Shown one piece after another: positions 50,331 to 56,245 of a DNA stretch of 64,000 nucleotides (the first letter of the stretch is position 1; each line of letters starts with the position of its first letter). Both the position numbers and the translations under genes were made by a program. This DNA comes from Rhodospirillales bacterium. GTDB lineage: Bacteria > Pseudomonadota > Alphaproteobacteria > ATCC43930 > CGMCC-115725. Under the pieces are notes generated by a model, which made no database searches, was not told the DNA's origin, and saw only the letters and a list, made by a program, of their open reading frames with translations. The stretch is from NCBI GenBank assembly GCA_028288725.1, contig JAQGIC010000047.1, forward strand, positions 1 through 64,000, written 5' to 3'.

Positions 50331-51422
50331 ATGTCGACCGCCCATACCGAAATTCGCGATCTGTGCCGTCGCGCTCTGTCGGGTCACCGCCGCCAGAGCG
50401 TCCGCGAGACCTTGAGCCGGCTCGGAGACTCGGCACTCGCCGATCTGCCGCGCGACGTCTATGGCGAGGGTGCGGCGATGCAGGCGCTCGAACGCGATGT
50501 CGCGGCGTTGCTCGGCAAGCCGGCGGCGGTCTTCATGCCCAAGGGCGTGATCGCGCAGCAGGCGGCGCTCAGGGTCTGGACCGACCGCTCCGGCCTGAAG
50601 ACCGTCGGGCTGCATCCGAAATGCCACATCGATCTGGACGAGCGGTCGGCCTACGAGCGTCTGCACGGGCTCCAGGCGGTGCGGCTGGGTTCGGATCATC
50701 AGCCGTTCGGGAGGGCGGAACTCGATGCCGCGGCCGAGGAATTCGGCGCGGTCACGGTCGAGCTGCCGCTGCGCCGCGCCGGCTTCAAGCTGCCGGAGTG
50801 GGACGAGTTGGTCGCAATCTCCGACTGGTGCCGTGCCCAGGGCGTGCCGCTGCATTTCGACGGCGCGCGGCTGTGGGAGGCGCAGCCGCATTATGATCGT
50901 CCGCTCGCCGAGATCGCCGGTCTCGCCGATTCGACCTATGTCTCGTTCTACAAGGGGCTGGGCGGGCTCGGCGGCTCGATCCTGGCCGGACCGACCGATT
51001 TCATCGCGGCCGCGCGCGTCTGGCAGGGCCGCCATGGCGGCACGCTCTGGACCGCGTTTCCGTTCGTCATCAGTGCCGCGGAGGGCCTGAAGCGTTACCT
51101 GCCCCGGATGCCGGCCTATCGCGAGCGGGCGCGCGGACTGGCCGCGGTACTGGCGCAATTGCCGGGTATCCGTGCCGTGCCGGCGCCGCCCCAGACCAAC
51201 GCGTTCCAGCTCTATCTGCCGGCGTCGGCCAAGGCGCTGGACGCGGCCCATCTGGCGCAGGCGCGCGACAGCGGGGTCTGGCTGTTCGGCCGCTTCGCCG
51301 AGACCATGCTGCCCGACCTTACCATGGCCGAGATCAACATCGGCGACGCGGCCGAGGATCTGAGCGATGGGGAGATCGCCGATCTGGTCGGCAAGCTGGT
51401 CGCGATGGCTCGATCGCGATGA
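50331..51422 (+). CDS. Threonine aldolase-like PLP lyase
   Basis: This fold-type I PLP enzyme of the beta-eliminating lyase/threonine aldolase family has 363 residues and would split a beta-hydroxy amino acid into glycine and an aldehyde. The PLP Lys is in STYVSFYKGLGGLGGSIL near 213, and PLHFDGARLWEAQ near 180 holds the conserved Asp. The typical SFSKGL is here SFYKGL. The ATG follows AGGAGAGGG. Its stop overlaps the start of the binding protein of a branched-chain amino-acid importer, so transport and lysis may be linked. Confidence 0.85.
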   Translation: MSTAHTEIRDLCRRALSGHRRQSVRETLSRLGDSALADLPRDVYGEGAAMQALERDVAALLGKPAAVFMPKGVIAQQAALRVWTDRSGLKTVGLHPKCHIDLDERSAYERLHGLQAVRLGSDHQPFGRAELDAAAEEFGAVTVELPLRRAGFKLPEWDELVAISDWCRAQGVPLHFDGARLWEAQPHYDRPLAEIAGLADSTYVSFYKGLGGLGGSILAGPTDFIAAARVWQGRHGGTLWTAFPFVISAAEGLKRYLPRMPAYRERARGLAAVLAQLPGIRAVPAPPQTNAFQLYLPASAKALDAAHLAQARDSGVWLFGRFAETMLPDLTMAEINIGDAAEDLSDGEIADLVGKLVAMARSR

Positions 51423-52525
51423 GGCTGTTTGCCGTCCTGCTGCTGACGCTGGTTGCGACAAAGGCCCTGGCCGAGCCGGTGCGCCTGCCGATCCTGGTGC
51501 CGGTCACCGGTTTCCTGTCGCTCGAAGGAACCAGCCAACGCAACGGGGCGCTGCTGGCACTGAAGCAGGCGCCGCCGGGCCTGGCGACGGGCGAGGTGAG
51601 CGATACCGCGACCGCGCCCGAGAACGCGGTCAATGCCCTGCTGCGCGTGCTGGACCAGGGGCCGGTGCCGGCGATCGTGGCGCCGATGCTGGGCACCCAG
51701 ATGCTGGCGCTGATGCCGACGGCGGTCGAGGAGAAGCTGGCGCTGCTGACCGTCTCCGGCACGGCGTCGCTGACGGAGCGGGGCAATCCCTGGGTGTTTC
51801 GCTTCTTCCCGTCCGACCGGCTCGCCAAGGAGGCCCATGTCCGGTACGCGGTCGAGCAATTGGGCAAGCGCAAGCTGGCGCTGATCTATCAGACCACGGC
51901 CTATGGCCAGAGCGGTGCGAGTTATATCGCGGCCTCGGCCAAGCGCCATGGGGCGGAACTGCTGTTCAGCGAAGGCATCGATACCGACGTGAAGGATCTG
52001 GCACCGATCCTCGGCCGGGCCGCGGCGTCGGGGGCCGATGTGCTGCTGTTCCATCTCCACGCCGGATCGACCGCGCTCGCCGTCCGGCAGGTCGCCGCCC
52101 TCGGCATCACGCTCCCCGTCATCGCCGGATCCGCGCTGCATCAGCCCGCGACGGCGGCCTTGCTCGAGCCGATGGAGCTGAAAGGCGTCTGTGCCGAATC
52201 CGGGTCCTCGCCCGTTTCGGGCGGTTCGCCCCGGCTCGACCGGTTCCTGGCCGAGTATCGCCAGGCGTTCGGCGCGGACCCCGATGCCTATGCGCTGGCG
52301 CAATATGACGCGACGCAGATGCTGCTCGACATTCTGGCCCGGGGTGCGCGGACCGGCGAGCAGGTGCGGGCTGCCCTTGCCCAAGGGCAATGGGATGGCG
52401 TCGCCATGCATTACGCCTCCGACGGGCGCGGCGACATGGCCCATAGCGCCCTTATCCTGTGCTACGACGGGCTGACGCGGGTCCCCAGGATCGTTCAGCG
52501 CTACGACGGGCTCGATGCCGGCTGA
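51419..52525 (+). CDS. Branched-chain amino-acid-type ABC substrate-binding protein (LivK-like)
   Basis: This periplasmic binding protein of 368 residues has the Leu/Ile/Val-binding fold (Peripla_BP_6). It has a signal peptide ending near ALAEP (residue 19) and then PVRLPILVPVTGFLSLEGTSQRNGALLAL. Pairs of Rossmann-like lobes are visible, with KLALIYQTTAYGQSGASYIAASAK near 145. Its ligand may be an amide or amino acid other than leucine. It overlaps the aldolase stop by four bases and the LivH start by 11, so the whole operon is translated in series. Confidence 0.88.
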   Translation: MRLFAVLLLTLVATKALAEPVRLPILVPVTGFLSLEGTSQRNGALLALKQAPPGLATGEVSDTATAPENAVNALLRVLDQGPVPAIVAPMLGTQMLALMPTAVEEKLALLTVSGTASLTERGNPWVFRFFPSDRLAKEAHVRYAVEQLGKRKLALIYQTTAYGQSGASYIAASAKRHGAELLFSEGIDTDVKDLAPILGRAAASGADVLLFHLHAGSTALAVRQVAALGITLPVIAGSALHQPATAALLEPMELKGVCAESGSSPVSGGSPRLDRFLAEYRQAFGADPDAYALAQYDATQMLLDILARGARTGEQVRAALAQGQWDGVAMHYASDGRGDMAHSALILCYDGLTRVPRIVQRYDGLDAG

Positions 52526-53402
52526 GCTGCTGACGTTCGCGCAGCTGGTGCTGAACGGGCTGGCGTTGGGGGCCGCCTATGCGCTGGTGGCTTTGGGCTT
52601 CGTCCTGGTGCTGAACGCGACGGGTGCGGTCAATTTCGCGCAAGGCGACATGGTCATGCTCGGCGGCTATGCCGCGGTGGCGCTGGCCCGCGCGCTGCCG
52701 GTGCCGGGACTGCTCCTGCTGCCGCTGGTCATGGCCGCGATGGCCGGGTTCGGGCTGCTGTTCTCGGCGCTCGCCTGGCGACCGTTCCGGCATCGGCCGC
52801 CGATTTTCGGCCTGCTCGCGACGGTGGCGCTGGGCCTGGCCCTGCAGGAAGCGATGAACGCGCTCGAAGGGGCGGGGCCCCAGGCCGGTCCTGCCCTGCT
52901 CGGCGTCGGCGAGATCCGGCTCGGCCCGCTCGGCCTGTCGCGCGCCTCGCTCGGTATTCTGCTCGCCTGTCTCGGGCTGGGGCTGGCCCAGGGCTGGCTG
53001 CTCGGGCGGACGCAGTTCGGCCGGCGTCTGAGGGCAAGCGCCCAGGACCCGGTGACGGCGCGGGCGCTCGGCATTCCGGTCGACCGGCTGATCGCCGTCA
53101 GTTTCATGCTGGCGGCCGCCCTCGCCGGGGCGGTCGGGCTCTTGCTGTCGGGGCCCTATTTCGTCACGCCGACTTCGGGCACCGATCTGATCCTGCGCGC
53201 CTATATCGCCGTCGCCATCGGCGGCTGGGGCTCGCTCAGGGGCGCCGTCGTGGGCGCGCTGCTGATCGCCCTGTTCGAGAGCGTCGTCGCCGGCTATGCG
53301 AGTTCGGTCGCGGCGACCGCCGCGCTCTATGGTGCCGTGCTGCTGCTGTTGATGGTGCGGCCGTCCGGCCTGTTCCCGGCACCGCTGGGGCGGCGGGCAT
53401 GA
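52515..53402 (+). CDS. LivH-type ABC transporter permease
   Basis: This 295-residue inner-membrane permease of branched-chain amino-acid importers has about eight helices. Family marks are LAYALVALGFVLVLNATGAVNFAQGDMVMLGGYAAV near 18-55 and the EAA-type loop ASAQDPVTARALGIPVDRLIAVSFMLAAALAG near 173-204. It overlaps livK by 11 bases and the fused LivM-LivG start by four bases. Confidence 0.92.
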   Translation: MPAELLTFAQLVLNGLALGAAYALVALGFVLVLNATGAVNFAQGDMVMLGGYAAVALARALPVPGLLLLPLVMAAMAGFGLLFSALAWRPFRHRPPIFGLLATVALGLALQEAMNALEGAGPQAGPALLGVGEIRLGPLGLSRASLGILLACLGLGLAQGWLLGRTQFGRRLRASAQDPVTARALGIPVDRLIAVSFMLAAALAGAVGLLLSGPYFVTPTSGTDLILRAYIAVAIGGWGSLRGAVVGALLIALFESVVAGYASSVAATAALYGAVLLLLMVRPSGLFPAPLGRRA

Positions 53403-55036
53403 TGCGGCCGGCCTCGCTCGTCGGGTTGGCGATCGCCCTCTGGCTGCTCGTCGTGCTGCTGCTGGGCTCCGGCTATGAACAGCGGCTGATGGCGCTCGCC
53501 GCCGGCTATGCGCTGATGGCGATCGGCTATCAGCTCGTGTTCGGGCAGGCCGGCGCCTTGTCGCTGGCCCAAGGCGCCTGTTTCGCGATCGGCGCCTATA
53601 CGGCTGGGATCCTTGGCGGCAGATTGGGCTGGCCGCTGTGGGCGGAGCTGCCGGCGGTCGTGCTGGTGCCGGCGGCGCTGGCGGGTCTGGCCCATACGCC
53701 GGTCCGGCGGCTCGACGGTCATTTTTTCGCGCTGGCGACGTTGGGGTTCGCGGTGCTGGTCCGGCTCGTCGCGGTCGATGCCCAGGGCCTGACCGGCGGC
53801 GCCAACGGGCTGGTTGGCGTGCCGGCATTCGGTCGGGGCCCCGGCGCGATGCTGGTCGGCTGGAGCCTGGTCGGGCTTGGCGCGGCGCTGGCCCTGTGGC
53901 TGACGCGCGGCGGCAACGGACCGGCCCTGGCGTTGGTGCGGGGCGACGCGGATCTCGCCCGGGCGAGCGGCCTCGATCCGGAGCGCATCCGCGCGCGCGG
54001 CTTTGTGCTGGCCGCGGGCTTTGCGGGGGCTGGCGGCGCCTTGCAAGCCCATGTGCTGGGTCTGGTCTCGCCGGACGTGGCCGAATTCTCGGTCATGGTC
54101 GGGTGCCTCGCCATGGTGGTCATCGGCGGTCGCGGCTCCGTCATGGGCGCCGTCCTGGGTGCCTTGCTGATCGGACATCTGCCGGAATGGCTGCGGCCGT
54201 TGGGGGCCTCCTATCGCGTCGCCTACGGGCTCGGCCTATTCGCCTGTCTGCTGGTTGCGCCGGCGGGACTGATCGGATCGCTGGAACGGTTCTGGCCGAT
54301 GCGCCGGGCCGCGCGTCCGGTGGCGGGGCAGCGAGCGGCGCCCGCCGTCGCCACCCTGCGGATCGACGGCGTCGAGAAATCCTATGGCGGCATCGCCGTG
54401 CTGCGGGACGTGACGCTCGAGGTCCGGCCGGGCGAAATCGTCGGGCTGATCGGTCCGAACGGTTCGGGCAAGACGACGCTGGTCAATCTGATCAGCGGCC
54501 TCGACCGTCCCGATCGAGGGACGATCAGCCTCGGCGAGCGCCGGCTCGACCGCCTGTCACCCGACCGGATCGCGCTGGCCGGTGTCGCCCGCAGCTTCCA
54601 AACCCCGGCACCGCCGGATGGCATGGCGCCGCTCGATCTGGTCACCGCAGCCCTGGCGGCGAAGCGCGGGTGCGCCGGGTTCGGGGCGGCGGCCGAACTC
54701 GAACCGCTGCAGGGCCGGGCCGCCGACCTGCTGCAGCGGGCCTGGTCGACCGACATCGCCCGCGCGCTGGCGCTCGATCCCGCCGTCCTGCTGCTCGACG
54801 AGCCGGCGGCCGGATTGGATGCCGGCGAGCGCGACCGGCTGGGCCTGCTGCTGCGCGCTTTGGCGGCGGAGGGCCGCGGTCTGCTCGTGATCGAGCATGA
54901 CATGGGTTTCCTGATGGGGCTGGTCGACCGGGTCGCGGTGCTGCTCGACGGACGCATCGCGCTGATCGGCACGCCGGACGCGGTGCGGGCCGACCCCGGC
55001 GTGCGCGCGGCCTATCTGGGGACGGTGCCATGCTGA
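53399..55036 (+). CDS. LivM-LivG fusion: permease joined to ABC ATPase
   Basis: The 545-residue protein fuses a LivM permease (about 1-300; LSLAQGACFAIGAYTAG near 55 and GGANGLVGVPAFG near 135) to a LivG-type ATPase (about 318-545). The ATPase has Walker A GLIGPNGSGKTTL near 350 and Walker B VLLLDEPAAGLD near 465, followed by the H-loop IEHDM. But the LSxGQ signature is missing: between the Q loop (SFQTPAPP) and Walker B the sequence runs LQGRAADLLQRAWSTDIARAL, about 25-30 residues shorter than usual. The partner LivF keeps a normal signature, so only one composite ATP site would work. Confidence 0.9.
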   Translation: MMRPASLVGLAIALWLLVVLLLGSGYEQRLMALAAGYALMAIGYQLVFGQAGALSLAQGACFAIGAYTAGILGGRLGWPLWAELPAVVLVPAALAGLAHTPVRRLDGHFFALATLGFAVLVRLVAVDAQGLTGGANGLVGVPAFGRGPGAMLVGWSLVGLGAALALWLTRGGNGPALALVRGDADLARASGLDPERIRARGFVLAAGFAGAGGALQAHVLGLVSPDVAEFSVMVGCLAMVVIGGRGSVMGAVLGALLIGHLPEWLRPLGASYRVAYGLGLFACLLVAPAGLIGSLERFWPMRRAARPVAGQRAAPAVATLRIDGVEKSYGGIAVLRDVTLEVRPGEIVGLIGPNGSGKTTLVNLISGLDRPDRGTISLGERRLDRLSPDRIALAGVARSFQTPAPPDGMAPLDLVTAALAAKRGCAGFGAAAELEPLQGRAADLLQRAWSTDIARALALDPAVLLLDEPAAGLDAGERDRLGLLLRALAAEGRGLLVIEHDMGFLMGLVDRVAVLLDGRIALIGTPDAVRADPGVRAAYLGTVPC

Positions 55037-55722
55037 GGCTCGATCGGGTTGGGATCCTGCGCGGCGGCGCTGTCGACGTCGACCTGGCCGCGGGCATCAC
55101 CGCCTTGCTCGGCCCGAACGGTGCCGGCAAGACCGAGCTGCTGGAGGCGGTGATGGGCTTGCGCCGCCCGCTCGCCGGATCGATCTATTTGGACGGCGCC
55201 GATATCGCTCGCTGGACGCCGGAGCGGCGGTCGCGCGCCGGCATCGGCTGGTGCCCGGAGGGGCGACGGATCTTCCCCGGGCTGAGCGTCATGGAAAATC
55301 TGGAGCTGGTCGCGACCGTCGGCCGGATGGAACGGCGACGACGCCTCGATCGGGTGCTGGGCTATCTGCCGGCGCTTGCCGACAAACGCGGGGCCGCGGC
55401 CTGGACCTTATCGGGCGGTCAGCAGCAGATGCTGGCGATCGGCAGAGCGCTGATGACCGCGCCGCGGATCCTGCTGCTGGACGAGCCGTCGCGGGGCCTG
55501 GCACCGGTGCTGGTCGCCGACCTGTTCGCGCTGCTGCGGATGCTGGCGGATGACGGCCTGACGATATTGCTGGCGGAGCAGGCGGTCGCCGCAGCCTTGA
55601 ACATCGCCGACCGTGGCTTGGTGTTGGAGCATGGGAGGCTGCAGGCGAGCGGCACGGCTGCGGAAATTCGCACCCATGCAGCACTGGAGCGCAGCTTGCT
55701 GGGTGCAGGCCGCTACAGTTAG
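55030..55722 (+). CDS. LivF-type ABC transporter ATPase
   Basis: This 230-residue second ATPase of the branched-chain amino-acid-type importer has Walker A ALLGPNGAGKTELLEA near 28-42 (Glu after Lys-Thr instead of the usual Thr/Leu), the LivF block GWCPEGRRIFPGLSVMENLELVA near 75, the signature TLSGGQQQMLAIGRAL near 128 and Walker B RILLLDEPSRGLAP near 148. It overlaps the fusion protein by seven bases. Its 3' end overlaps a convergent hypothetical gene by four bases. Confidence 0.93.
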   Translation: MLRLDRVGILRGGAVDVDLAAGITALLGPNGAGKTELLEAVMGLRRPLAGSIYLDGADIARWTPERRSRAGIGWCPEGRRIFPGLSVMENLELVATVGRMERRRRLDRVLGYLPALADKRGAAAWTLSGGQQQMLAIGRALMTAPRILLLDEPSRGLAPVLVADLFALLRMLADDGLTILLAEQAVAAALNIADRGLVLEHGRLQASGTAAEIRTHAALERSLLGAGRYS

Positions 55723-56072
55723 GCCTGCAGCCGGCGTTCGGGCATCACCGCCGCCGGTTCGATCTTGCGGGCGGCGAGGAAGGCGGCGAAGTCTTTTGGC
55801 GACAGCCAGGCAGCGGTGCATTCCGCGGGCAGCGCGATCGTGTCGAACTGGTCCGGCGCGGTCTCGCCCAGCGGCTGCCAGGCCGCGTCCGTCAGCACGA
55901 TCTTGCCGGCCGGCAATCCGGCGTTGATGCGGATCGTAAGGCCGCGATATTCCACCACCTTTGGTCGGCCGCCGAGCTTGACCCAGACATAACCGACCAG
56001 ACCGAAGACGCAGGCCAGCAGAATCCCGAACAGGATCATGCTGAAAACGTCGCCTGACGGGGGCATGGACAT
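55719..56072 (-). CDS. Membrane-anchored protein of unknown function
   Basis: This 117-residue protein has one N-terminal membrane helix near 12-32 (MILFGILLACVFGLVGYVWV) and a soluble domain containing RGLTIRINAGLPAGKIVLTDAAWQPLGE. No family is recognised. The ATG at 56072 was chosen over a TTG upstream. It overlaps the convergent livF end by four bases. The 216-base region upstream is AT-richer than average and contains a long-range inverted repeat. Confidence 0.6.
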   Translation of the reverse strand: MSMPPSGDVFSMILFGILLACVFGLVGYVWVKLGGRPKVVEYRGLTIRINAGLPAGKIVLTDAAWQPLGETAPDQFDTIALPAECTAAWLSPKDFAAFLAARKIEPAAVMPERRLQA

Positions 56073-56245
56073 GAGGCTCAACCTTTTCGCTTAACCGAGG
56101 GCGGGTTCGACCCCGACGAGATCTCTGTTGCTCAAAAAGTTCGGGAGGCTCCAAAAGTGCGCTTCGGCATCTCGGCCTACCGCACTTGCCGGATTCTACC
56201 GGCGAAGCGAAAACAAAAGCTTTACGTTGAAAAGAAAATGCCAGG

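Follow-up and report, generated by a model that had tools for sequence, protein, structure and literature searches.

The window, a 64,000-nucleotide stretch of DNA from a Rhodospirillales bacterium whose draft genome (5.54 Mb in 146 contigs) is 99.66% complete, carries a run of five overlapping genes on the forward strand. Successive genes overlap by 4, 11, 4, and 7 nucleotides, and all five reading frames are open. These genes and the ATPase motifs of the fourth one are listed in Table 1.

Table 1. Genes of the importer locus and motifs of the LivG half, in positions of the window.
Feature	Positions	Strand	Basis or remark
PLP-dependent threonine-aldolase-like gene, first of the run	50331-51422	+	Beta_elim_lyase, 5.8e-35
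Periplasmic substrate-binding protein	51419-52525	+	Peripla_BP_6, 1.2e-44; overlaps the LivH gene
LivH-type permease	52515-53402	+	BPD_transp_2, 1.2e-35
LivM-LivG fusion, 545 aa, single open frame, fourth gene	53399-55036	+	Domain matches
LivG Walker A GPNGSGKTT, intact	54452-54478	+	Lys in 57/57 fusions
LivG Q-loop SFQT, intact	54593-54604	+	Gln in 57/57 fusions
LLQRAWSTDIARAL, expected place of the LSxGQ signature loop, before Walker B	54728-54769	+	Motif reading, profile, and model
LivG Walker B and D-loop LLLDEPAAGLD, intact	54788-54820	+	Asp-Glu in 57/57 fusions
LivG H-loop VIEHD, intact	54887-54901	+	His in 57/57 fusions
LivF ATPase, 230 aa, separate gene	55030-55722	+	Domain matches and motifs

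From its genes, the operon is predicted to encode an ABC importer of the Liv/HAAT type, composed of the binding protein, LivH, the LivM-LivG fusion, and LivF. The features by which this class is recognized are all found here, namely LivH/LivM-type permeases, two Liv-type ATPases (LivG with a BCA_ABC_TP_C tail), and a binding-protein gene in the operon. The initial annotation had described the fourth gene as a LivM-LivG fusion, and its single frame indeed encodes both domains, with matches to BPD_transp_2 at residues 30-285 (the LivM half, 4.1e-31), to ABC_tran at 335-390, and to BCA_ABC_TP_C at 524-542. For the two ATPases, the top NCBIfam models are UrtD/LivG and UrtE/LivF, both with scores below the curated cut-offs. 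The gene set is that of E. coli LivFGHM (HAAT), except that LivM and LivG are separate genes in E. coli and fused in the window. LivMG-type fusions on three Azospirillum plasmid records share the fused architecture and are 46.6 to 48.1% identical to that of the window.

Every ABC ATPase motif tested in the LivG half is present save the signature, for which an alignment of fusions has a gap at all five columns. A profile of the signature region, run over the three frames of positions 54600-54800, likewise found none; its best score was -1.1, and 0.8 such matches are expected by chance. In a leave-one-out check on whole proteins, 27 relatives and a congener (one other species of the genus was compared) reach scores of 7.3 to 46.9 with this profile. 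Thus, the motifs and the three-frame search both bear out the original reading that the LivG half keeps Walker A, Walker B, and the H-loop and lacks the signature. Because no signature lies in any of the three frames, a single frameshift error would not restore one. One frameshifted reading of the region gave an off-frame peptide that by eye resembled that of the congener; the profile gave it no support, and it was rejected.

The window has 65 residues between the Q-loop and Walker B; E. coli LivG has 90, the congener has 78, and 57 LivMG fusions have 65 to 90 (median, 75). The 25 residues fewer than in E. coli LivG agree with the 25 to 30 first estimated to be lost from this interval. By these counts, the shortening is partly general to the fusion group, and the two congeners differ by 13 residues. 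An AlphaFold2 model of the LivG domain (mean pLDDT, 89.5) places a helix at residues 431-448, then two residues, and then a helix at 451-458, with no loop between them. In this model, the signature helix is reduced to the short second helix. The model is of a single chain with no nucleotide, was built from a 17-row alignment without near relatives, and has pLDDT values of 69 to 85 in the part of the helical subdomain that precedes the junction. It keeps a normal ABC fold, and its closest structural match is ATP-bound LptB (4p33; Z, 29.2; rmsd, 1.8; 217 residues aligned).

The congener carries the same gene order, from an FAA-hydrolase gene through LivF, and its fusion is 77% identical to that of the window. 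Its LivG half also lacks LSxGQ and instead reads PAAGA, in a register set by ungapped right-anchored alignment, and it has 13 residues more than the window at this place. The profile does not recognize a signature in the congener either, since its best match there (9.5) is to the upstream helix and not to the PAAGA stretch. The LivF proteins of both species have GKTE at the end of Walker A. Because this GKTE and a degenerate signature are common to the two congeners, degeneration began before the species split. Absence of the deletion from close relatives, which would have counted against the original reading, holds only by half: the congener does not have the 13-residue gap, but it has no proper signature of its own. 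With one genome per species for this pair, the extra 13-residue gap could be strain specific or an assembly error, which would hardly apply to the changes common to both.

These comparisons also bear on whether the signature region dropped out of this genome through an error in sequencing or assembly. Such an error would be in keeping with an assembly that is a draft in many contigs and the only one for its species, and the region can be aligned with that of the congener at the nucleotide level by means of indels that first shift and then restore the frame. It would leave unexplained the lack of LSxGQ and the GKTE of the congener, and the profile reveals no hidden signature above chance in any frame. 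Furthermore, no tandem repeat was found in positions 54400-55000, the frame stays open, and GC3 is unremarkable across the region. We therefore regard an error as very improbable.

The LivF partner had been called normal except for a Glu in place of the Thr after the Walker A Lys-Thr. The Glu is there (GPNGAGKTE from 55111), and the signature (LSGGQ from 55408) and Walker B (LLLDEP from 55471) are indeed normal, but two further positions depart from the consensus: the Q-loop position holds Glu (PEGRR from 55255) and the H-loop position Gln (LLAEQ from 55567), as is usual among the LivF proteins compared here. Among 56 LivF partners of LivMG fusions, all have LSGGQ or LSGGE; the H-loop position is never His (Gln in 55, Asp in 1), and the Q-loop position is Glu in 53 and Gln in 1. 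GKTE is found only in the LivF proteins of the two congeners. The Walker A Lys and the Walker B Asp-Glu are kept in 55 of the 56, including the window. E. coli LivF resembles that of the window at both loop positions (Q-loop Glu, H-loop Gln), and its signature is MSGGE.

The one LivF that departs from this pattern, encoded after the fusion of locus L090 (G478:C238:40724-42406), has an open frame in which the Walker A Lys is replaced by Arg and the Walker B Glu by Ser, with Asp at the H-loop position. This is the only loss of the catalytic Walker B Glu among the 56 partners. As judged from these motifs, the changes represent a separate loss on the composite site that LivF forms with the LivG signature.

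In a head-to-tail dimer of the nucleotide-binding domains, one composite site (site G) would consist of the Walker A, Q-loop, Walker B, and H-loop of LivG together with LSGGQ of LivF, and it would be canonical. The other (site F) would combine Walker A and Walker B of LivF with the signature of LivG. Given this arrangement, the missing LivG signature, the Glu after Lys-Thr in LivF Walker A, and the Gln and Glu at the LivF H-loop and Q-loop positions all fall on site F, and site G is complete. Hydrolysis would most likely occur at site G, with LivF acting as signature donor and scaffold. Site F would be unable to clamp ATP in the usual manner and at most would hold a nucleotide on its LivF side; import might then be driven by one ATP per cycle. 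We consider it probable that the operon encodes a working Liv/HAAT-type pump with an unequal ATPase pair, in which site G is consensus and likely hydrolyzing and site F is degenerate.

The main reservation is that LivF keeps its Lys and Asp-Glu, and site F may therefore still bind or hydrolyze ATP. If ATP were bound through these LivF residues while the shortened LivG helix made a new contact, two ATPs could still operate, and the retention of the same residues in nearly all LivF partners is consistent with this. In the model, however, the helices follow one another with hardly a break at the expected place of the signature loop, as far as a single chain with no nucleotide can indicate. The residue after the Walker A Lys-Thr contacts the alpha-phosphate, and a Glu there looks unfavorable. 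An active site F is thus an unlikely alternative to the unequal pair.

The alignment with the LivMG fusions of relatives that had been proposed as a check was made with 57 fusions: 2 from the genus, 4 from the family, 2 from the order, 20 from across the class, and 29 from the order of genome G368. For this last set, 30 loci of 48 matches were used, of which 29 were new, and these 29 come from one family-level group. A separate search of genome contigs for relatives returned nine loci, encoding ABC proteins of Halobonum, Anaerolineae, and Streptomyces, and no near relative of the fusion. The LivF partners number 56 because no LivF adjoins the fusion in genome G037. At that locus (L102, G037:C2:4500-14500), a frame read as a GntR-type regulator comes after the fusion instead.

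Among the fusions compared, complete absence of the signature loop was seen in the window alone (0 of the 56 others). Lesser changes are widespread: at the LivG signature, Ser is present in 1 of 57 fusions, Gln in 2, and Gly in 29 (27 of the others have Ala and 1 a gap). The Gly is thus missing in 28 fusions, a count inflated because 29 rows are near relatives from one family-level group. Twenty-four of these 28 belong to the family-level group f50, which probably comprises Azospirillum and its kin; the main f50 group lacks the Gly in 24 of 26 fusions, compared with 4 of 26 outside f50. The f50 fusions retain a full-length signature helix, most often reading LPAAL, in contrast to the short, loopless helix of the window, and their LivF Walker A ends in KST or KSS (KTT in one row, L086) rather than KTE. 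On a tree of the fusions, built with the signature columns included, L003 left out, and L002 as the outgroup, the state of the signature Gly requires five changes, four of them forced by well-supported branches. A long branch (1.04) leads to the two congeners, which do not group with the rest of their family; support for this placement is weak (83/59). Across the fusions, the motif comparison indicates that the lesions fall on one composite site, with the residues of site G kept and those of site F drifting.

A milder form of this asymmetry is found beyond the fusions. LivG of E. coli K-12 keeps the residues of its own site and has the non-canonical signature LAYGD, and its signature loop is full length with the Gly kept; the E. 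coli LivF Walker A is GKTT, compared with no loop and GKTE in the window. In a phylum-wide sample restricted to the best 30 loci (104 of 120 genomes matched) and therefore biased toward E. coli-like LivG, the own-site residues and the signature Gly are present in 29 of 29 LivG proteins and the Ser in only 4; among the 28 LivF proteins of the same loci, the H-loop position is Gln in all and the Q-loop position Glu in 27. In an archaeal locus (L012), LivG carries LSGGQ, and the Q-loop position of LivF is Gln.

The window genome itself yielded 22 loci with 21 LivG-like and 20 LivF-like proteins, assigned by best score to E. coli. LSGGQ occurs in 2 of the 21 LivG-like paralogues, and the signature Gly is missing in 3 or 4 of them, with one row perhaps misassigned. 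The H-loop position of the LivF-like proteins is Gln in 18 of 20, and the Q-loop position is Glu in 16 and Gln in 4. Some rows may be misassigned: at the H-loop position, one LivG has Gln and two LivF have Lys, and one row has the signature LTLPE. The LivG-like paralogues L003, L052, and L060 (contigs C132, C32, and C77) lack the Gly and read LQHSE, LPFAD, and ITQEE, respectively. From these alignments, the LivF/LivG asymmetry is frequent without being universal; set against the relatives examined, the window is the extreme case, and milder forms occur elsewhere.

Another possibility is that the operon is decaying and the LivG lesion is the first step in pseudogenization of a redundant transporter. 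The genome does hold about twenty LivG-like loci, a long branch leads to the genus, and the helical subdomain is the fastest-evolving part of LivG. Between the window and the congener, dN/dS within LivG is 0.37 for this subdomain, compared with 0.31 for the N-terminal core and 0.11 for the C-terminal core, and against 26 diverse relatives the subdomain of the window is the least conserved (0 of 26 lower). On the other hand, dN/dS for the transporter genes is 0.17 for LivM, 0.24 for LivG, 0.25 for LivF, 0.25 for LivH, and 0.18 for the binding protein. The two core parts of LivG are ordinary in their conservation (8 and 16 of 26 relatives lower), and the LivM half is rather divergent (4 of 26 lower). 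The dN/dS values and the core conservation argue against decay and are not expected of a wholly dying gene. Since the five frames also remain open and overlapping and the congener keeps the same gene order, we judge decay improbable relative to a working pump with one consensus site.

One degenerate nucleotide-binding site is assigned where a fully consensus site is paired with a second site of altered signature, and the sequence has both here. Loss of the catalytic Walker B Glu at the second site, a frequent but not universal mark of such transporters, is not seen. The original proposal of a single degenerate ATP site accordingly fits, since the LivG loss and the LivF Glu are predicted to affect one and the same composite site; the congener shares the Glu and has a degenerate signature. 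Its further claim that this is rare in such importers does not hold, because 56 of the 57 fusions lack the signature Ser, about half lack the Gly, and LivG-like paralogues in the same genome also lack the Gly. Literature on LivF/LivG asymmetry or on a signature-less LivG was absent from the matches listed, which cover subscription papers thinly.

Degenerate importers outside this family also speak against rarity. RbsA and NupO of Bacillus subtilis are described as importers with one degenerate ATP site, altered in signature and Walker A (PMC11466899). In these proteins, a single chain carries both nucleotide-binding domains, and the Lys is missing from the second Walker A (PMC11466899). In the window, LivG instead shares a chain with LivM, and LivF is a protein of its own that keeps the Lys. 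The permeases that work with RbsA and NupO share PF02653 with those of the window. Degenerate sites are well described in the exporter-type ABCB2/B3 (TAP), ABCC1, Pdr5, and ABCG5/G8; every degenerate site encoded in the human genome is reported to have a changed signature, and in ABCG5/G8 Walker A is changed too (PMC7756269). Likewise, TM287/288 is presented as an exporter-type protein with one degenerate site (PMC7756565). These exporters share with the window the combination of one consensus and one degenerate composite site; they differ in that their signature is altered, while in the window the loop is missing, the Walker B Glu is kept, and the transporter is of the importer type.

A Liv importer under purifying selection with a signature-stripped composite site would offer a natural test of whether one ATP is enough for import, and the series from LxxG through PAAGA to no loop would provide material for it. 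Importers are usually described as two-ATP machines. In E. coli, as in most of the sampled relatives, LivF has a sub-canonical site that faces a LivG signature without Ser, and for this reason the Liv/HAAT importers as a group might be one-consensus-site ATPases, of which the genus of the window would have dispensed with the second site to run on one ATP per cycle with no second ATP sandwich. We advance this broader view tentatively and lean against it at present.

Sequence searches of a 2026 copy of the PDB gave no match to the LivH of the window at E ≤ 0.01 and none to its LivM at E ≤ 1, and E. coli LivH matched only an uncharacterized 232-residue protein (E, 0.4). By such sequence searches, no solved relative of LivH/LivM-type permeases was found.

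The first gene of the run may give a clue to the substrate of the importer. The threonine-aldolase-like enzyme matches a GntG-family aldolase model with a score below the cut-off of that model, and its gene overlaps that of the binding protein by 4 nucleotides; the substrate might accordingly be a beta-hydroxy amino acid. Of 15 other regions, only that of the congener (G001) was found to have such a gene next to the operon. A small open reading frame on the reverse strand after LivF (55722-56081), with no Pfam match, has a 47% counterpart adjoining the operon in the congener.
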